Below the pieces are notes generated by a model, which did no database searches, was not told the DNA's origin, and worked only from the letters and a program-made list of their open reading frames with translations. Below, one piece after another: positions 7,565 through 16,018 of a stretch of 64,000 nucleotides of DNA (positions are counted from its first letter, which is position 1; each line of letters opens with the position of its first letter). A program made the translations under genes and the position numbers. Source of the DNA: Akkermansia biwaensis (GTDB lineage Bacteria; Verrucomicrobiota; Verrucomicrobiia; Verrucomicrobiales; Akkermansiaceae). The stretch spans positions 310,001-374,000 of the forward strand of contig NZ_AP025943.1 in assembly GCF_026072915.1 (NCBI RefSeq), written 5' to 3'.

Positions 7565-8524
7565 ATGCCAAACACATCACACTCGCCGCTATTGGAAAAA
7601 ACCATCGAACGATTCCTGTTCCATTCCCAATATGAAAAAAACCTCAGCGAAAAGACCCTGAAAGCCTACGCAACCGACTTGCGGCAATTCGCCGGCTTCA
7701 TGATTGATCAAAGATCGGTTTACTCCCTGCCTTCCATCTCCGCGGAAGACTTGAAGCAATACGTCAAATCGCTGTCATGCTTCCAGCCCAAAACCATGAA
7801 AAGAAAAATGGCCACGCTCAAAGCCATGCTGAACTTCATTGAAATGGAAGACGACGACTTCATCAACCCCATGCGGAAGCTCAAAATCAACATCAAGGTC
7901 CCCTTCCTGCTCCCTCCCGTGATGGACTCCATGGAAGTAACGTCCATCCTGACGACACTTTACCGGGAAAAAAACGCCTGTTCCGGCAAAACGGGACATC
8001 ACTATCAGGAAATCATCCGCAACATTGCGGTAGTAGAACTCTTATTCGGCACCGGCATCCGGGTATCGGAACTATGTGCCCTGCGCCTTTCCTCCGTAAA
8101 CCTCGCTAACGGCTTCATCAAAGTCTATGGAAAAGGCGGCAAGGAGCGTGTCATTCAAATATGCCAGGAGGCTATTCTTGAAGCCCTCCGGGAATACCAG
8201 CGCCTGTGTCTGTCCTCATCGCGGCCAAACACATGCTTCTTCATCAACCGAAGGGGCCATAACCTCTCCTCCCAGTCGGTAAGAATCATGGTCAAAAAAC
8301 TGGCCTTGAAATCCGGCATCCTCAAACCCGTAACGCCCCACACATTCCGCCATACCTTCGCCACCCTCCTCTTGGAAGAAGGTGTAGACATCAAATACAT
8401 CCAAACCATTCTCGGCCACAGCTCACTCGCCACCACCCAAATCTACACCCACGTCAGCACCGCCAAACAAAAAGTCATTCTTCAAAATTTTCATCCAAGG
8501 AGAAGGTTAAGAATCTTCTCCTAA
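7565..8524 (+). CDS. Tyrosine site-specific recombinase (XerC/D-like, probable DNA invertase)
   Basis: 319-aa tyrosine recombinase. An N-terminal SAM-like core-binding domain (about 7-105) is followed by the catalytic domain. All catalytic residues are visible: Arg166 in GTGIRVSEL, a Lys in GKGGKER (190-193), His259 and Arg262 in HTFRHTF, His285 in ILGHSS and nucleophile Tyr294 in IYTHV. Base composition is lower in G+C than the core genome. The stop codon ends 4 nt before a 17-bp inverted repeat whose partner lies 3.7 kb away, so the simplest reading is that this enzyme inverts the adjacent two-gene segment, as tyrosine invertases do for surface loci in Bacteroides. It could instead be an island integrase or a housekeeping Xer protein; its length and motifs do not separate these. 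Confidence 0.93.
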   Translation: MPNTSHSPLLEKTIERFLFHSQYEKNLSEKTLKAYATDLRQFAGFMIDQRSVYSLPSISAEDLKQYVKSLSCFQPKTMKRKMATLKAMLNFIEMEDDDFINPMRKLKINIKVPFLLPPVMDSMEVTSILTTLYREKNACSGKTGHHYQEIIRNIAVVELLFGTGIRVSELCALRLSSVNLANGFIKVYGKGGKERVIQICQEAILEALREYQRLCLSSSRPNTCFFINRRGHNLSSQSVRIMVKKLALKSGILKPVTPHTFRHTFATLLLEEGVDIKYIQTILGHSSLATTQIYTHVSTAKQKVILQNFHPRRRLRIFS

Positions 8525-8528
8525 AGAG

Positions 8529-8545
8529 TGATAACTATTTATTAT
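8529..8545 (+). repeat. Left 17-bp inverted repeat (candidate recombination site)
   Basis: TGATAACTATTTATTAT, an exact reverse complement of 12236-12252. It lies 4 nt after the recombinase stop codon and 16 nt before the SHMT-like ATG. Inside it, ATAA-CTAT-TTAT (8531-8542) is a small dyad with a 4-nt centre, reminiscent of the ATAA...TTAT arms around the centre of Xer dif sites. Similarity does not extend clearly beyond 17 bp on either side. Confidence 0.85.
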
Positions 8546-8561
8546 CCAGAGAAATTAACAA

Positions 8562-9833
8562 ATGAATGGTAATTTAGAAGAGTTTCAGAAAATTTGTCAG
8601 GAACTACAGTATGAAGAAAAGCGCCTTCTACCTTTGTGTGCAGCGGAAAACGCCATATCGCCGTTCGGAAAAATTCCGTTAGATTCCTTTATTCAGGAGA
8701 AATACATTATGGGAGGTATTATCAGGCTGGAGACCGAACATAATTTCATGGAAGCGGAACATTTATTTAAGTTCTACAGTCTCCTCAATCGACAATGTTT
8801 TGACTTATTCCAAAGTAATTATTCAGATGCAAGGACATTATCAGGTGTCAATGCCGTTATGATCCTCCTGATGAGTCTCTTTCAACCGGGTAGTACTTTG
8901 CTTATATCATCGGAAGATAGTGGAGGTCATGGTTCCATGCCTCTTATATGCCATCGGCTTGGTATAAAATTTATATATGCGCCGTTTGATTATGAGATAA
9001 TGGACTTTGACTATGAAAAAATTAAAGCATTACGTAAAAAGGAAAAAATTGACGGTATGCTTATATGTCCATCTGACATTTTGTTTCAACCATCTTTGCA
9101 AAATCTGGAAGTATCAGAAGATTTTATAATTATTTACGATGCAACTCAAACTTTAGGTTTAATATCTGGAAAATCCAATTCCAATCCCTTCCATTTTTTC
9201 AGCAATGAAGTTCCATTTGTTTTAATGGGAGCCACTCACAAAACGCTTCCCGGGCCGACTAGCGGATTAATCATGACGAATAATCAGAAACTGATGAATC
9301 TCATTGATACAAAAATTAATCCAGATTATCTACGAAATGTGCAATTTCATCAGATTCTTAGTCTCATTCTTGTTCTTATCGAGATGGAAATGTTTGGTGA
9401 ACAATATAGTAAGCAAATTATAAACAATGCCAACAAACTAGGGCGTTATCTTGAGAAACTGGGAGTGCAAGTAATTCGAGCCCGCAATGATTTGTATACA
9501 GACACTCATCAAATATTTATATCCATGAAAGAAAATGAGATAACAAGATTTCTTCACAGAAGCCAATCACATAGGATAAGTTTAAACGGAAGGTATAAAA
9601 GGCTCTATCGCGATTCAGGAATACGGATAGGAGTTCAGCAAATTACGCGTCATGGTTGGGAGGAAGATGAATTTGAGCAACTTGCTGATGTTTTTTATCA
9701 GCTCACGCAGGATACATACAACTATGACGAAGTAGAAAGAAAACTTAATATCTTGCGTTCAAAGAAAGATGTCCATTATACTTTTTCCGAGCAAACGTAT
9801 CATGATGTCTTCAACTGCTTACATGACGGTTAA
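8562..9833 (+). CDS. Divergent serine hydroxymethyltransferase-like PLP enzyme
   Basis: 423-aa fold-type I PLP protein whose segments line up in order with SHMT: LPLCAAENAISP (23-34, SHMT LxLIASENxxS), EKYIMGG (46-52), SNYSDARTLSGVNAVM (85-100), SGGHGSM with the ring-stacking His (120-126), YDATQTLGL with the PLP aspartate (192-200) and THKTLPGPTSGLI with the Schiff-base lysine Lys227. The folate- and serine-contact regions are poorly conserved, so this is probably not the housekeeping glyA product; a threonine-aldolase-like or amino-acid-modifying role is possible. G+C is near one third, far below flanking genes, which suggests transfer. It begins 16 nt inside the left inverted repeat and its last 15 nt overlap the 3' end of the opposing STAND gene. 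Confidence 0.8.
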   Translation: MNGNLEEFQKICQELQYEEKRLLPLCAAENAISPFGKIPLDSFIQEKYIMGGIIRLETEHNFMEAEHLFKFYSLLNRQCFDLFQSNYSDARTLSGVNAVMILLMSLFQPGSTLLISSEDSGGHGSMPLICHRLGIKFIYAPFDYEIMDFDYEKIKALRKKEKIDGMLICPSDILFQPSLQNLEVSEDFIIIYDATQTLGLISGKSNSNPFHFFSNEVPFVLMGATHKTLPGPTSGLIMTNNQKLMNLIDTKINPDYLRNVQFHQILSLILVLIEMEMFGEQYSKQIINNANKLGRYLEKLGVQVIRARNDLYTDTHQIFISMKENEITRFLHRSQSHRISLNGRYKRLYRDSGIRIGVQQITRHGWEEDEFEQLADVFYQLTQDTYNYDEVERKLNILRSKKDVHYTFSEQTYHDVFNCLHDG

Positions 9834-12224
9834 TTTAACTGGTCCTCCATGTTGAGCGGCGTGCGCCAAGTCGGCATATTGCATTTTTTCCCAATATCTA
9901 GTTTGATTTTGATCAATTTCCCCGCCTCGAAGCAGATTCTCGACATAACATGCACAAGCATAGTTTATTGATAGTACGTGGTTGTGAGCTTCATCGGATA
10001 AATCAGTCATTATTTTTTGTACTTCATTTAATTGTTCACTCTGGATGATGTCATGGAACTGGTGTAATGTTAAAATTTTACCTAGCTGGGACATTGTCCG
10101 CAGATTGAGATCACCGTTTTCATCAGCAAATGCAATAGCCTGATTATAAAGGGAAAGAATTTCATTTTTTACTTTTCGATTCTGGTTTTCTGCGGCATAA
10201 GATTTTATTCGTAAAAGTTCAGCTTTTTCAAAGTATAAATCATAAATAATTCTGTACTGAGTTTTTTCTAGACTGCGCAAAGCATTATTTACAATAGTAA
10301 GAGCAGATTCTATGTCTTGAAGTTTCTTCAGTGTGTAAATCGCCCGATGCCGTTGCGCATGCATTATGACGGGAGATTCTCCAATCTCTTTGGCAAGCGT
10401 GTCTATCCTGTTAAATGATGCCTCGTAATCGAATGACGTATCCCAGAATAGATAGATAGCGATACGCGAGTAGAGAATTTTCATTTGCAACTCAAGATTT
10501 TGTATATTAGTGTTCTTATCCAAGCCTCTAAGAATATTATCAGCCAAAAGCAAGTCGCTTCCCTGATGCTTTAATATGTGAGCCTTTAAATATAAAAGCT
10601 TGGCCTCTTGTATTTGGTTCTTGAAAACCTTGGGGAGATGTTGCAGAAAAGCGTCGATTTCGCTTATGGCAAAAGAAAACCGATTGCTTAGATGATGCAA
10701 ATCGATAATGAGAAATAGCATATCAAAATCTTCTGCATTCATATTTTCTGTGGGTCTCAAAGTTGGCAGAGCAGAATCTATTTCCTCCAAACGAGCTAAT
10801 TCCGAGTATGCCCTTCGGTATTGTCCCAGTTGCAACAAGGAGTTTAAATAACAGTAATTAAAATATTGATTATTCGAATGGCTTTCTTTAAGTGACGAAT
10901 TGAGATAACCGATTTGCTCATATTGCCACAGACGTTCGAGAAATAAATACTGTTTGCCGTCCAAAAGATTTTTTAGAATTTCGCGACCAGTTTCTTCTGA
11001 AAAATGAGTGTCGCTTAACATCAATAAAGAAACATTCAACGTACCATCAAAAATATTTTCCAGATGTTCATGCGAATTTTTAATCATTTCCACAGCTTGA
11101 TTTTTGTTGCAGCATTTACGACAGGATTCTGCTACCAAATCATTCATCCGTATATTTCCATCTCTTGTATCATTTTCTCGATATATCAATGAAGAATCGA
11201 GGACTGCACATACATGGTGAGGTGTGCTATCAGGGATAATATCGTATATTTTCCGTTCAGGAAGCGAGTCAACTCCCATAAGCTTTAAGTAAGCCATTAA
11301 CATCACGATCTTTTTTGACTCATTACTGAAAAAAGAGTATTGCTGCCATATTATTTCATCAATAGTTTCAATATTAGAAAGATTTAGAGCCCTATTTTGA
11401 TGTTCCAAATCTATTAATATGCGTACATAGGTTGGAATGCCGCTTGACAAACGAAGAATCTTTTCAGGATCAGTTATTGAAATGTTGTAAACTTTTTCCA
11501 ACTCATGCAAATGGAGGCACCCAAATATATCTGGTTTCAAATTTCCATATAACGTGATAGTTTGGCTGTATACTAGTGATTCTATTGTAATTCCAATAAT
11601 GATAGAGATGTTTTTGGATGAATTTGTCAGTATTTCAGCAAACTTGTCAGCATCTCTTTTCCTGTTTCTATCAATGCCATCCAGGATAAATACGATTTTG
11701 GGGTAACGAGATGCTTGATCAAGATATGCAGCCAGGGATGCAGCTGTTCCAATTTTTTCATCGGGGGGGATCCCTATCATTTCAAGACACTTATGTAATA
11801 TAGAAGAATCTTTGCCTTCTATTTCCACGTAGTACACTGTTGTGCATATTTTTTTCTTTGCCAAGTCATTGGCAAGGCGAAGAAGTAATAGTGTTTTTCC
11901 TATTCCTTTCTTGCCGGTAACATAAAAAATCCTGCGTCGCTCGCTACTATCTTTGATGAATTGCATAAGCGTACGGCGTTCATTTTCACGGTCGACAAAA
12001 AAATTGTCGCAGTAACATTTTGTTGAAGACAAAACGACGGGATATTTAAATATAGTTAGAATTGATAACGATATAACCAACCCCGAGGCGAAGAGTTTCC
12101 AAGAATCGGTGTGTATAACTCCTAATATTACGAGTATGGTAACGACGGGGATCACTCCGCATATGTAAAACCAAGCCAATCTGTGCAGCCAGAGGGCGCG
12201 AGTCTTTTTTGTTTGGTTGCGCAT
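9819..12224 (-). CDS. Membrane-anchored STAND NTPase with helical-repeat C-terminus
   Basis: 801 aa. Two N-terminal transmembrane helices (about 16-37 and 43-60) precede a P-loop NTPase: Walker A GKKGIGKT (104-111), Walker B KIVFILDGID (176-185), and a GxP-type motif SSGIPTYV near residue 270, as in NB-ARC/NACHT-like STAND ATPases. A winged-helix-like stretch follows, then about 450 residues of alpha-helical, TPR-like repeats that would serve as sensor. Proteins of this layout (effector or membrane domain, STAND core, repeat sensor) include Avs-type antiphage sensors and signalling regulators, so a membrane-disrupting defence role is plausible but not proven. The gene is AT-rich, starts 11 nt inside the right inverted repeat, and is convergent with the SHMT-like gene. 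Confidence 0.85.
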   Translation of the reverse strand: MRNQTKKTRALWLHRLAWFYICGVIPVVTILVILGVIHTDSWKLFASGLVISLSILTIFKYPVVLSSTKCYCDNFFVDRENERRTLMQFIKDSSERRRIFYVTGKKGIGKTLLLLRLANDLAKKKICTTVYYVEIEGKDSSILHKCLEMIGIPPDEKIGTAASLAAYLDQASRYPKIVFILDGIDRNRKRDADKFAEILTNSSKNISIIIGITIESLVYSQTITLYGNLKPDIFGCLHLHELEKVYNISITDPEKILRLSSGIPTYVRILIDLEHQNRALNLSNIETIDEIIWQQYSFFSNESKKIVMLMAYLKLMGVDSLPERKIYDIIPDSTPHHVCAVLDSSLIYRENDTRDGNIRMNDLVAESCRKCCNKNQAVEMIKNSHEHLENIFDGTLNVSLLMLSDTHFSEETGREILKNLLDGKQYLFLERLWQYEQIGYLNSSLKESHSNNQYFNYCYLNSLLQLGQYRRAYSELARLEEIDSALPTLRPTENMNAEDFDMLFLIIDLHHLSNRFSFAISEIDAFLQHLPKVFKNQIQEAKLLYLKAHILKHQGSDLLLADNILRGLDKNTNIQNLELQMKILYSRIAIYLFWDTSFDYEASFNRIDTLAKEIGESPVIMHAQRHRAIYTLKKLQDIESALTIVNNALRSLEKTQYRIIYDLYFEKAELLRIKSYAAENQNRKVKNEILSLYNQAIAFADENGDLNLRTMSQLGKILTLHQFHDIIQSEQLNEVQKIMTDLSDEAHNHVLSINYACACYVENLLRGGEIDQNQTRYWEKMQYADLAHAAQHGGPVKLTVM

Positions 12225-12235
12225 ATCTACAATCT

Positions 12236-12252
12236 ATAATAAATAGTTATCA
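12236..12252 (-). repeat. Right 17-bp inverted repeat (candidate recombination site)
   Basis: Exact reverse complement of 8529-8545. Read on the minus strand it sits 11 nt upstream of the STAND NTPase ATG, so each repeat copy forms the 5' leader of one of the two opposing genes. Confidence 0.85.
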
Positions 12253-12264
12253 ATTGTTCGAAGT

Positions 12265-12293
12265 AGTATAACCGTCTACCTCCAATTAATCTA
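12265..12293 (-). promoter_or_regulatory. Possible inward-facing promoter outside the right repeat
   Basis: On the minus strand, TAGATT (12288-12293) and TATACT (12265-12270) are 17 nt apart. The -10 box matches the sigma-70 consensus at five of six positions, the -35 at only three. If active it would transcribe whichever gene lies at the right end of the invertible segment, and the switch would then be a choice of promoter rather than strict on/off. AT-rich sequence makes chance matches likely. Confidence 0.3.
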
Positions 12294-12391
12294 ATATATC
12301 AATAATTTACCCATATTCAACATTATTCACAATCTAACATATTGTGAAATATCCTGAATAACTCTATGCGAATGAGTATCCTGGAATATAT

Positions 12392-13405
12392 CTATCTCAA
12401 CTCCACCCATATGCCGCGGTGGTCGCTGGCCTGGCGGGAGGGGGGAGTGTCGATGACACCCATGGGGGGCTTGCGGCCGAGGCGTTTTTTCAGGGTGTTG
12501 TTGATAAAGATGTGGTCAAAGGAATGGTAGGTGTCGCCGTCTTCGTAATAGATGGTCCACGTTTCTCCGCGGGAATCCCGGGGTTTCAGACGGTTCAGGC
12601 GGGAATCCGTTTTCGCCGGACCCTGGATGACCTGCACGGAACTGTCGGCAGGACCGTCATTGAAGTCCCCGTATAACAACAGGGGCATGCCGTCCTGGGA
12701 GGCCATGACGCCGTTCAGGTAGTCGCGCAGGGCATAAGCTTCCCTTCTGCGGGTCTCCTCCGCGGAGCCGTCGCGGCTCAGCCGGGATTTCAAATGAACG
12801 CCTATCAGACGGAACTGGCGGGAATCCGGCATTTTTACGGTGGCGTCCAGAATACCTCGGAGCATCGTTTTACGCCGCTTGGGTTCTCCCGATACGGGCA
12901 TATCCGTCACGGAGCGGTTGCTGACAATGGGGTACTTCGACAACAGGGCGAGTCCACGGTCTTCACCGTCCCGCATGACCAGCACCTTGTGCGGCAACTG
13001 CACGCCCTTTCTTTTCAACCGCATTTGCAGGTCGTTCACGGCGGCTTCCCCGCCCATCTCGGACAGGCCCACGATTTCCGCGCCGGATTGCCTGACGAGC
13101 TCCGCTATGGCCTCCCGCGCTTCCACGGGCTTGTACTTCACTTGAAAATTGCTTCTCCGCGGGTCTTCCGGCACAAAATAGTTGCCCGCATTCATAGTCA
13201 GCATCCTGACGGGCTCCCCCTTCTCCGGAAGGGTGATCTTTTCCGGCGCCATTCCCTGCTCCGCCGCCTGCCGGGACGCGGGTACGGCTTCCATCGTGTC
13301 CGGAAGCAGTTTCCATTCCGACAGGCCGTAGCCTATCAGCGCGCACAGCACAATCAGGGCCGCGATTACCGAAGATCCCCTGCTCCTGGACGTTTTCCTG
13401 ACCAT
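12392..13405 (-). CDS. Endonuclease/exonuclease/phosphatase (EEP) family protein with membrane anchor
   Basis: 337 aa. A basic N-terminus and one hydrophobic helix (about 12-28) would anchor it or act as a signal peptide, placing the catalytic domain outside the cytoplasm. The EEP metal-dependent phosphoesterase motifs are in order: an Asn in LTMNAGN, the metal Glu in GLSEMGG, the His in IGVHLKSR, GDFNDGP, the Asp in SFDHIFIN, and the terminal ASDHRG with the catalytic His. The family includes DNases, sphingomyelinases and inositol phosphatases, and the substrate cannot be told. G+C is back to the core level here, so the gene marks the right flank of the AT-rich island. Confidence 0.85.
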   Translation of the reverse strand: MVRKTSRSRGSSVIAALIVLCALIGYGLSEWKLLPDTMEAVPASRQAAEQGMAPEKITLPEKGEPVRMLTMNAGNYFVPEDPRRSNFQVKYKPVEAREAIAELVRQSGAEIVGLSEMGGEAAVNDLQMRLKRKGVQLPHKVLVMRDGEDRGLALLSKYPIVSNRSVTDMPVSGEPKRRKTMLRGILDATVKMPDSRQFRLIGVHLKSRLSRDGSAEETRRREAYALRDYLNGVMASQDGMPLLLYGDFNDGPADSSVQVIQGPAKTDSRLNRLKPRDSRGETWTIYYEDGDTYHSFDHIFINNTLKKRLGRKPPMGVIDTPPSRQASDHRGIWVELR

Positions 13406-13525
13406 ATCCGTTTCCCTGAAAGAATTTTTACCGCAAAAGCGTAGTGAATGAATAACACCGCCGTGAAAATTCCGCTCCCATTACTCGGCTTTCACTTCAC
13501 TTTCATCCGTAATTCATGATAAAAC

Positions 13526-14212
13526 ATGAATGTGCCTCCATTGCAACCCAAGAACGAGTCCCAGCCTGACGAGAATACGCTTTCCCAGTATGCGGAGCAT
13601 ACCAGGAAAAGCCTGATTGCCCGTCTGGAAAATTGGGAAGACCAGCGCACCTGGGATGAATTTTACCGCACGTACTGGCGGCTCATTTACTCCGTGGCGC
13701 TGAAGGCCGGATTAAGGGAGGACGAAGCCTGGGACGTGGTGCAGGAGACCATTCTTTCCATCGCCAAGCAGAGCAAGAAGAACATCTACAACCCGGAACA
13801 GGGCTCTTTCAAGCTCTGGCTCTGGAACATGACCCGCTGGCGCATCAACGACCAATTCCGCAAACGGAAAAAGGACACGGCCATGCTGATGAATCCTGAC
13901 GCCGGCGAATCCCAGGAACACCCTATCGACAAGATTCCGGACGAAGGCAAGAACAACTTCGACCAGGTATGGGAGCGGGAATGGCAGAACAACCTTCTGC
14001 AGGCCGCGCTGGAACGCGTCAAGGCCAAGGTGTCCCCCAAGCAGTTCCAGATTTTCGACTACTACGTGCTGAGGGAATGGGATGCGGCCAAGGTCCGCAG
14101 GCAGCTTGGCGTCACCATCGCCCAGGTGTACCTTGCCAAGCACCGCGTGGGCAGTGTTCTGAAAAAGGAGCTGCAATTCCTCCAATCCCAGGAGGAAGAA
14201 CACCGGAAATAG
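13526..14212 (+). CDS. ECF-type RNA polymerase sigma factor
   Basis: 228 aa, sigma-70 family, extracytoplasmic-function layout with regions 2 and 4 only. Region 2 spans about residues 40-120 (DEFYRTYWRLIYSVALKAG, then VVQETILSIAK and FKLWLWNMTRWRINDQFRKRK, the -10 recognition helix). Region 4 near residues 165-215 contains a helix-turn-helix in WDAAKVRRQLGVTIAQVYLAKHR spread over two helices. The spacer between is charged and longer than usual. Directly downstream on the same strand is a PAS/PP2C phosphatase, a pairing that suggests a signalling pair, although 168 nt separate them. No anti-sigma gene is adjacent. The family call is secure; the regulon is unknown. Confidence 0.9.
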   Translation: MNVPPLQPKNESQPDENTLSQYAEHTRKSLIARLENWEDQRTWDEFYRTYWRLIYSVALKAGLREDEAWDVVQETILSIAKQSKKNIYNPEQGSFKLWLWNMTRWRINDQFRKRKKDTAMLMNPDAGESQEHPIDKIPDEGKNNFDQVWEREWQNNLLQAALERVKAKVSPKQFQIFDYYVLREWDAAKVRRQLGVTIAQVYLAKHRVGSVLKKELQFLQSQEEEHRK

Positions 14213-14380
14213 CATTTTCCGCAACGTTCAACATTTTGCGGTCCCGGAAGATTTCAGGAAAGCCGTCCGGAAACCTCTCGGCATGTCTTTTCCGGGCCGT
14301 CCCTCCGGCCGGGATGAGATTCCTTTATTTTGTCTCTTGCCAAGGGTGCTGTTTTGTCGTTAGATTAGCGGCAACTGCAT

Positions 14381-16018
14381 ATGCCGCCCTCACGCAACAG
14401 ACATTCCGCCCAGAAGGTGTTCACCTGGGACAAGATCAAGATGGCCCTGTCGGCGGCGGAAGAGGGATTCTACATCTGGAATATCAAGACGGGCGTCATC
14501 CACTACACGGACCGCTGCCTGACCATGATGGGGGCCAGCCGCAAGGAAAAGGCCCCCAATATTTTCACCCAGCCGGAACTCACCATCCATGAGGAGGACC
14601 AGGCCTTTTTCTCCCAGGAGGTGCGCCGGTACCTAGACGGGCATTCCCACATGCCCATGCGCATCGAAATCCGGATGAAAAAGCTCAACTCCAAAAGCTG
14701 GAGCTGGGTCCGGGTCAACGGCATCGCGCGCCGGGACAAGCAGCGCCGCCCCGTCATGCTCATAGGCGTCTGGGTCAACATCACCAGGCGCAAGACGGCG
14801 GAACTGCGCGCCGCGGAGGACCGGGACCTGTTCCATACCCTGATTGAACACATTCCGGACAGCATTTATTTCAAGAACCGGGAATCGCGCTTCGTTCTGG
14901 CCAACTCGGCCACGGCCAACAAGCTGGGCGTCCCCACTCCGGCGGACCTGACCGGACGGACGGACGCCTATTTCTTTGACAAAACCATGTCCGACATTTC
15001 CCGGAACGAGGAACTGGACATCATGAAGACCGGCCGCCCCATCCGCGCCCGGCTCCATCATGAAACATGGCTGCACAGGGACGATACCTGGAGCCAGATC
15101 AGCAAATTCCCGTGGTATGGCCGCAACGGGGACCTCAAGGGAATCGTGGGCATTTCCAGCGACGTCACCAAACTGGTCAAGACGGAGATCAAGGCGAGGG
15201 AAACGGCCCGCATCCTGGAAGAACGGAACAAGTCCCTGGAAAAGGAAATCGACCTGGCCCGTGAAATCCAGTTCGCCCTGCTCCCCTACGAGCTCCCCTC
15301 CCGTTCCCGCACGGAACGCGGAGTGACCCGGAAGGCGGACTTCCACCACATCTTCACCCCTTCCGAAGGGGTGGCGGGCGACTGGTTCGACGCCTTCCCC
15401 GTAGGCGACTCCGGCGTAGGGGCCATCGTCTGCGACGTGATGGGGCACGGCATCCGCGCCGCCCTGATCGCCTCCATGCTCCGGGGCCTGATGGAACAGC
15501 TTTCCCACCTGGCGGACAATCCCGCCGCATTCCTCACTTCCCTCAACCACCAGCTTTCCAAAATACTGCAAAGGGCCAACACCACCATGTTCGCCTCCGC
15601 CGTTTATATTTACCTGGACCTGGAAACGGGCGTCATGACCGCCTCCACGGCGGGCCACCCGCATCCCATCGTGCTGGGGCCGGACGGAATCGCACGCAAG
15701 ATGCCCCTGCCCCGCGGCATCGCCATGGGCCTGCTGGATGACGCCGCCTACCAGAATGCCCAGTTTCCCCTCCTTCCGGGTTCACGCATCCTGATGTACA
15801 CGGACGGCCTGACAGAAGCCGCCAACGCGGAAGGCGAAGAGATGGGAGTGGAACGCCTGATTGATTACTTCAACAATTCCACGGCCAAGACTACCAAGGA
15901 TTTCGTGCATCAGGCCCTTACCTGCGTAGCCAAATTCACGGGCTGCACCAACCAGGCGGACGACATCTGCATGCTGGGCATCAGCTATTCCGAGCATGAG
16001 GAAGAAACCGGGCATTAA
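14381..16018 (+). CDS. PAS-PAS-PP2C (SpoIIE/RsbU-type) serine phosphatase
   Basis: 545 aa. Two PAS sensor domains (about 18-135, ending GVWVNITRRK, and about 150-270, ending GIVGISSDVTKLV) are followed by a short coiled coil (about 275-300) and a SpoIIE/PP2C phosphatase domain. The phosphatase motifs are present: GDWFDAF with a metal Asp, CDVMGHGIRAALIASML, TAGHPHPIVL, YTDGLTEA and the late metal Asp in NQADDI. No transmembrane segment, so it acts in the cytoplasm. Such proteins dephosphorylate anti-sigma-antagonist proteins in partner-switching pathways. No STAS or kinase partner is encoded nearby; the sigma factor just upstream is the obvious candidate to be in the same circuit. The stop overlaps the stop of the opposing WD40 gene by 4 nt. 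Confidence 0.92.
   Translation: MPPSRNRHSAQKVFTWDKIKMALSAAEEGFYIWNIKTGVIHYTDRCLTMMGASRKEKAPNIFTQPELTIHEEDQAFFSQEVRRYLDGHSHMPMRIEIRMKKLNSKSWSWVRVNGIARRDKQRRPVMLIGVWVNITRRKTAELRAAEDRDLFHTLIEHIPDSIYFKNRESRFVLANSATANKLGVPTPADLTGRTDAYFFDKTMSDISRNEELDIMKTGRPIRARLHHETWLHRDDTWSQISKFPWYGRNGDLKGIVGISSDVTKLVKTEIKARETARILEERNKSLEKEIDLAREIQFALLPYELPSRSRTERGVTRKADFHHIFTPSEGVAGDWFDAFPVGDSGVGAIVCDVMGHGIRAALIASMLRGLMEQLSHLADNPAAFLTSLNHQLSKILQRANTTMFASAVYIYLDLETGVMTASTAGHPHPIVLGPDGIARKMPLPRGIAMGLLDDAAYQNAQFPLLPGSRILMYTDGLTEAANAEGEEMGVERLIDYFNNSTAKTTKDFVHQALTCVAKFTGCTNQADDICMLGISYSEHEEETGH

Follow-up and report, generated by a model that had tools for sequence, protein, structure and literature searches.

The window analysed here, 64,000 nucleotides of Akkermansia biwaensis (contig NZ_AP025943.1, positions 310,001 to 374,000; positions below are those of the window), carries a tyrosine recombinase gene followed by a two-gene cassette at 8529-12252. 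The recombinase gene (7565..8524, plus strand) ends 4 nt before the left recombination site, TGATAACTATTTATTAT (8529..8545, plus strand), a dif-like GATAA-N7-TTAT sequence with the spacer CTATTTA; the right site (12236..12252, minus strand) is its exact inverse. The arms are perfect 17-bp inverted copies, and outward extension of the repeat gives 31 nt at 81%. Between them lie two convergent genes. The first encodes an SHMT-like pyridoxal phosphate (PLP)-fold enzyme of 423 aa (8562..9833, plus strand); it starts 16 nt inside the left arm and is proximal to the recombinase in this orientation. The second encodes a STAND-like NTPase of 801 aa (9819..12224, minus strand); it starts 11 nt inside the right arm and is distal. 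The two open reading frames (ORFs) overlap by 15 bp (9819..9833), which leaves no room for an insulator, and the cassette interior has a G+C content of 37% compared to 57% for the window. A preliminary description of this DNA had reported the perfect repeat around two convergent AT-rich genes and the distances to the recombinase gene and the start codons; the coordinates and a repeat check agree with it, and the distances are reproduced. The 3' overlap of the two ORFs is an addition to that description.

The recombinase (319 aa) is fixed, outside the invertible segment, and matches the Pfam family Phage_integrase (3.5e-43). Residues R166, K190, H259, R262, H285 and Y294 do not vary across a 12-row alignment; these are presumably the catalytic residues, all of which had been said to be present. 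The protein is Xer-like and falls below the NCBIfam equivalog cut-offs for XerC (237.7 vs 335.15) and XerD (234.8 vs 329.6). A housekeeping XerC/XerD role is rejected on these scores and on the presence of three other matches elsewhere in the genome; a classical transposon with terminal repeats is rejected because the recombinase gene lies outside the repeats. The distribution of the recombinase is sporadic. It is found in 9 of 260 genomes of the family at E<=1e-60 (own genome counted). A Bacteroidota sample of 395 genomes has 7 with a match at E<=1e-100 (the central genome counted), and further samples have 3/128 and 1/124 at E<=1e-110; these last three samples overlap.

The 423-aa protein matches Pfam SHMT (2.7e-17) and has the PLP-lysine fold by sequence, its THKT motif (residues 225-228) aligning with 4bhd; its score is under the NCBIfam SHMT cut-off (146.9 vs 335). 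The 801-aa protein matches AAA_22 (2e-10) with a score above the cut-off (41.5 vs 27), while its nSTAND_NTPase5 score is below (28 vs 34); it has two N-terminal hydrophobic segments and a Walker A motif at 104. Among 192 relatives (own genome included), 3 have the SHMT-like gene at E<=1e-30, always at the cassette locus. Relatives of it are absent from viral contigs and occur in 65 plasmid records; by annotation, neither of the two plasmid contexts examined is a cassette. No STAND relatives are found in plasmids at 1e-8. The 5' end of the STAND gene (12012-12235) is 65-82% identical to that of a related genome, G016, compared to 97% for the whole cassette; it may encode a variable membrane part.

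Inversion between the two sites, which had been proposed from the repeat and the recombinase, can be seen in related genomes. Orthologous loci in G036, G016 and G048 contain the same 17 site bases. G016 has the cassette in the orientation of the window; in G036, whose recombinase is 98% identical, the 3.7-kb interior is reversed at 97.0% identity, with collinear flanks and breakpoints at the sites. Inversion of the window locus is well supported by the opposite orientation in G036. The two outcomes that would have spoken against the proposal, repeats that are not conserved and an opposite orientation that never occurs, did not turn up in the related genomes. Three cassettes were also used as DNA queries against plasmids and phages, which yielded a single additional pair in opposite orientations, from Aliarcobacter. 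The Aliarcobacter cryaerophilus plasmids pACRY43158 (its second cassette, L215) and pM830MA (L143) differ by inversion of a 3458-bp interior that is 99.91% identical; the flanks are collinear at 99.8-99.9% and the breakpoints are at two 16-bp sites. Both are complete plasmid records from one species, and they have a common recombinase accession (WP_105918336.1), approximately 42% identical to the recombinase of the window. On alignment, these plasmids are the clearest case of inversion.

The 17-bp repeat of the window might instead have arisen by chance, with no inversion at all; this has almost nothing left to recommend it. Inverted repeats do arise in AT-rich DNA, and a 17-bp inverted pair appears in 66 of 2000 shuffles when no distance limit is set; with arms at least 1 kb apart, a perfect pair appears in only 1 of 1500 random sequences of the same neighbour composition. 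The site is also kept in the orthologues, and the natural inversions in G036 and Aliarcobacter, which break at the sites, contradict a chance repeat. Elsewhere in the 3.18-Mb single-contig genome there are no site copies at up to 2 mismatches and 7 more places at 3 mismatches. An inverton of the kind that flips a short intergenic promoter segment is rejected, as the segment here is 3.7 kb long and filled by two whole genes.

Draft assemblies give a further indication. Six have a contig end within 300 nt after the recombinase, and five of these (L035, L038, L047, L048 and L160) stop inside the site or at most 60 nt from it; L046 ends 226 nt past the site. In both G262 and G351, the contigs of the two flanks end at an identical base just beyond the site, as expected if the sequenced DNA holds both orientations. 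In G056 (strain CSUN-56), the other-flank contig begins at the right-site start expected from comparison with G016. Repeats of ~17-40 bp usually spare assemblies on their own, and we infer that mixed orientations would break them. Overall, inversion at the sites can be taken as good as shown for the family, and for the window through the comparison with G036 only.

Cassettes of this type span at least four phyla. A scripted scan of 41 loci with a separate check (L163 and L164 duplicate L051 and L052) gives 16 intact cassettes and a decayed one, L045; L215 was added as another cassette. A recombinase profile score of at least 380 is reached by 24 loci; 16 of these have a site-bounded segment (L045 counted) and six break off no more than 300 nt past the recombinase; L063 begins 5 nt into a lone site, and the scan shows no cassette in L040. 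Below that score, L167 (343) has a cassette too, and the rest contain no such site pair, except for L055 and L060, which have inverted SLH pairs, and a weaker repeat at L065. The scan took in 4 viral-contig loci (L062-L065) of 80, and 3 of 13 phage records were examined; a second recombinase query gave one remote match among viral contigs. The cassette on the IMG/VR contig L062 adjoins an 820-aa ORF (12775-15237) that is phage-like by eye, and the module may ride on prophages. L045 (10950-12735) is site-bounded and without an ORF of at least 60 aa; it has several inverted duplicate stretches and shares its GAPDH-adjacent position with L159.

The sites follow the consensus ATAA-N7-TTAT and occur as two inverted copies near the recombinase. 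They resemble dif, with the difference that dif has 6 central bases instead of 7. The two copies are identical in 17/17 loci, partly by construction since loci were chosen for an inverted repeat; twelve different 7-nt spacers are found among the 17. Identical copies with varied spacers are what strand exchange would demand. The plasmid pACRY43158 carries two cassettes (L215 and L142), each with its own recombinase and its own site spacer, and the spacer difference may prevent cross-talk.

Each of the 16 intact cassettes consists of two convergent units (one or two ORFs per unit) with a 3' overlap of 4-65 nt, whereas 5 of 17 convergent ORF neighbours outside cassettes overlap (raw ORFs, some of which are perhaps not genes). 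The segment lies downstream of the recombinase in 14 of the 16 and upstream in L039 and L167. Among the 14 downstream-type loci, the proximal ORF starts at most 55 nt from the recombinase stop in 12; the distance is 113 nt in L049 and 148 nt in L043. A start codon shares the last site bases in L036, L039 and L159, and by eye in L160. The proximal gene probably belongs to the operon of the recombinase.

Eleven kinds of gene pairs make up the cargo of the intact cassettes. SHMT-like and STAND genes are paired in the window, G036 and G016. In L049 (Cloacimonadota), a methyltransferase plus an SHMT-like protein faces a membrane NTPase-like protein; the SHMT part is 26% identical to that of the window (E 2e-23), and the NTPase-like protein does not match that of the window at E 0.01. 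L036 pairs a GT9-like protein with an AAA/STAND-like protein of 1138 aa. ThsB and ThsA, the Thoeris pair, are found in L043 and L167. GNAT-like and methyltransferase genes are paired in L039 (Akkermansia) and in L144 (Aliarcobacter faecis pAFAEC), at 26% and 34% identity. ATP-grasp and ATPase genes are paired in L142 and, reversed relative to the recombinase, in L143; L215 is the L143 cassette flipped. The other kinds are an Mrr-type nuclease-AAA unit with a glycosyltransferase unit (L158, two ORFs each), a methyltransferase with an EamA-like protein (L159) or with a small membrane protein (L062), a membrane protein with an FAD enzyme (L161), and a spermidine-synthase-like protein with an unknown one (L162).

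The Thoeris cassettes of L043 and L167 are identified on both partners. ThsA models are matched at 7.2e-165 and 2.7e-97 and ThsB models, by the TIR partner, at 2.7e-13 and 3.1e-7 (PADLOC); with Pfam, ThsA has SIR2 plus STALD and ThsB has TIR. Other PADLOC matches concern a single partner. The methyltransferases of L049 (9e-17), L159 (3.7e-14) and L062 (1.9e-7) match mad2, a match to the generic methyltransferase part; the nuclease of L158 (3.7e-5) and a YbaK-like protein of L142 (8e-4) give weak matches. The GNAT-like and methyltransferase pair recurs across phyla, and Thoeris is present at two separate loci, which suggests that the genes of a cassette form part of one system. By analogy with Thoeris, any pair found in such a cassette is probably a functional pair.

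The cargo is exchangeable. Akkermansia recombinases that are 87-98% identical carry three cargo kinds, and Aliarcobacter recombinase genes at 97.8-100% DNA identity carry two; near-identical recombinases and flanks thus occur with different pairs. Conversely, one near-identical pair lies in a clearly more diverged flank: the SHMT/STAND interior is 97.1% identical between the window and G016, compared to 85% for the recombinase and 81% for the gene beyond the right site. Identity drops near the sites. It is 57% over the 40 nt that precede the left site, ~30-50% in the intergenic flank just outside the right site, and 65-82% over the outermost 240 columns of the interior at its right end, which are more diverged than the rest. 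These patterns would also be expected if the element were mainly an exchangeable cassette, integron-like or replaced by recombinase-mediated exchange at paired sites, with inversion a by-product of no regulatory meaning. This is improbable: inverted sites yield inversion and not excision, a recurring convergent two-unit plan whose proximal gene closely follows the recombinase is unexpected for a mere cargo bay, and ordinary homologous recombination in the flanks would resemble cassette exchange.

The reading we favour, with some confidence, is that of a portable recombinase-linked inversion module whose orientation sets which of the two parts of a system lies behind the recombinase operon. The recombinase would recombine the two sites and reversibly invert the segment. 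Each flip would place one gene directly behind the recombinase, in its operon, where it would be well expressed; the other would be moved to the far side, with weak or different expression and with antisense transcripts reading over it from the proximal gene. As the genes overlap tail to tail with no insulator between them, strong transcription of the proximal gene would continue in antisense across the distal one, so that one gene at a time is favoured. The two genes would make up a single two-part system, most clearly so for Thoeris, and a flip would give cells that differ in the dominant half; this would act as a population hedge on a costly two-part system, possibly one of defence or conflict.

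The distal gene faces the other flank. In L036 and L037 this flank resembles, by eye, the same place in a recombinase-less genome (L170); the flank of the window does so less. The preliminary description had the SHMT-like and STAND genes swapping behind the same leader and recombinase gene. The inversion part of that claim is well supported. Because the left and right flanks are unlike each other, an inversion would not just exchange the two genes behind a shared leader.

Several observations weigh against the favoured reading. Protection by Thoeris requires both genes (PMC7272460), and a strict either/or would abolish it. A plain choice between unrelated functions fits poorly with sibling Thoeris pairs that need both genes. 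Both parts could come from mixed orientations among chromosome or plasmid copies, from leftover protein after a flip, or from a weaker right-hand promoter. Promoter scans of 24 flanks from 12 loci give matches no better than shuffles (lowest p 0.06) and do not tell the expressed side; terminator scans are uninformative. PADLOC's best model for each of the two TIR proteins is PDC-S66 and not ThsB. The two genes of the window have no PADLOC matches below 0.001 (best 0.0042), the cargo tested beyond these and the single-partner matches has none, and both partners are matched for Thoeris only; a defence role is consequently supported for the Thoeris cassettes and extends to the rest of the family by analogy. 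G036 is a metagenome-assembled genome and the sole opposite-orientation case at the window locus. Drafts such as G036, G013 and L049 have the cassette within an unbroken contig, so that a break at this place is no general rule. Finally, L040 has a close recombinase and, by the scan, no site-bounded cassette.

The need for both Thoeris parts makes control of ratio or timing a serious rival to strict either/or. In a dosage or stoichiometry switch, both genes would always be expressed from both flanks, and inversion would swap promoters and set the ratio. An inward sigma-70-like match of uncertain meaning lies at 12320-12293 (minus strand) in the right intergenic flank of the window (12253..12391); it reads TTGAAT-16-TG-TATATT, with p 0.13 against shuffles. 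The right flank of L049 offers TTGACA followed by a weak second hexamer (p 0.28), and TGATATACT is seen by eye near the right site in Aliarcobacter. Such a switch is possible, yet distinctly less likely than the favoured module. The promoter matches do not exceed those in shuffles, and two active promoters would collide, as there is no terminator room between the overlapping genes; in L045 and L159, a terminator-like hairpin (by eye) lies between the upstream gene and the right site.

A bolder version of the favoured module can be considered, though it is doubtful: the cassettes may be cross-phylum invertible immunity modules in which the halves of a two-part system are separated in time. Only one half would be expressed from each chromosome copy, the full, costly system would exist only in just-flipped or mixed-orientation cells, and whole pairs would be exchanged between strains via the paired sites.

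To our knowledge, no portable inversion module with exchangeable non-surface cargo is known. S-layer switches such as slpA/slpB of Lactobacillus acidophilus have two genes on an inverted segment, one expressed and one silent; those are homologous alleles, whereas the module has unrelated genes and 16-17 bp sites. hsdS inversions by PsrA create allelic specificity variants without exchange of two different components. Thoeris genes are usually in tandem; in L043 and L167, ThsA and ThsB are convergent, overlapping and within an invertible segment. A silent slpB is reported (PMC6015585), as is inversion at inverted repeats by the tyrosine recombinase PsrA (PMC7096588); the module would share the latter mechanism. 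For MBA/UU376 of Ureaplasma parvum, alternate phase variation by DNA inversion at inverted repeats is described (PMC3047005). There, inversion alternates the expression of two different genes, which encode surface proteins of one genus. Gut invertons, including those of Akkermansia muciniphila, have short inverted repeats with tyrosine-type recombinases nearby, and some intersect genes (PMC11892184). An A. muciniphila example from that paper is ~0.2 kb long and near autotransporter genes, while the module covers 1.6-5.4 kb with two whole genes. According to a 2025 paper (PMC12529663), recombinases are often near anti-phage genes, with unknown function. No description of a portable inversion module with paired, non-homologous and partly defence cargo was found in searches of the open-access literature, supplements excluded.

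Gene-swapping inversion is thus already known for surface proteins; what seems new is a portable module with exchangeable paired cargo. Through this module, DNA inversion, so far associated mainly with surface antigens and promoters, becomes connected with two-component gene pairs, a known defence system among them. The module also provides a searchable signature (a recombinase, an ATAA-N7-TTAT pair and tail-to-tail overlapping genes) for new two-part systems. The puzzle is why a system that needs both parts should be put on a switch favouring only one of them at any moment.

A related arrangement is seen in L055 (4000-6883) and L060 (11117-17424), where recombinases 36-37% identical to that of the window lie between or beside long inverted pairs of SLH-domain (S-layer) genes. 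The inverted repeats extend into both gene starts; this is probably a surface-antigen cousin of the module. The Akkermansia cassette of L039 (5784-7439), upstream of its recombinase and with start codons inside the inverted repeat, lies among genes that look by eye like glycan-biosynthesis genes. In L162, a TIR-domain-like ORF (12272-12733, by eye) is located just beyond the right site of the cassette.

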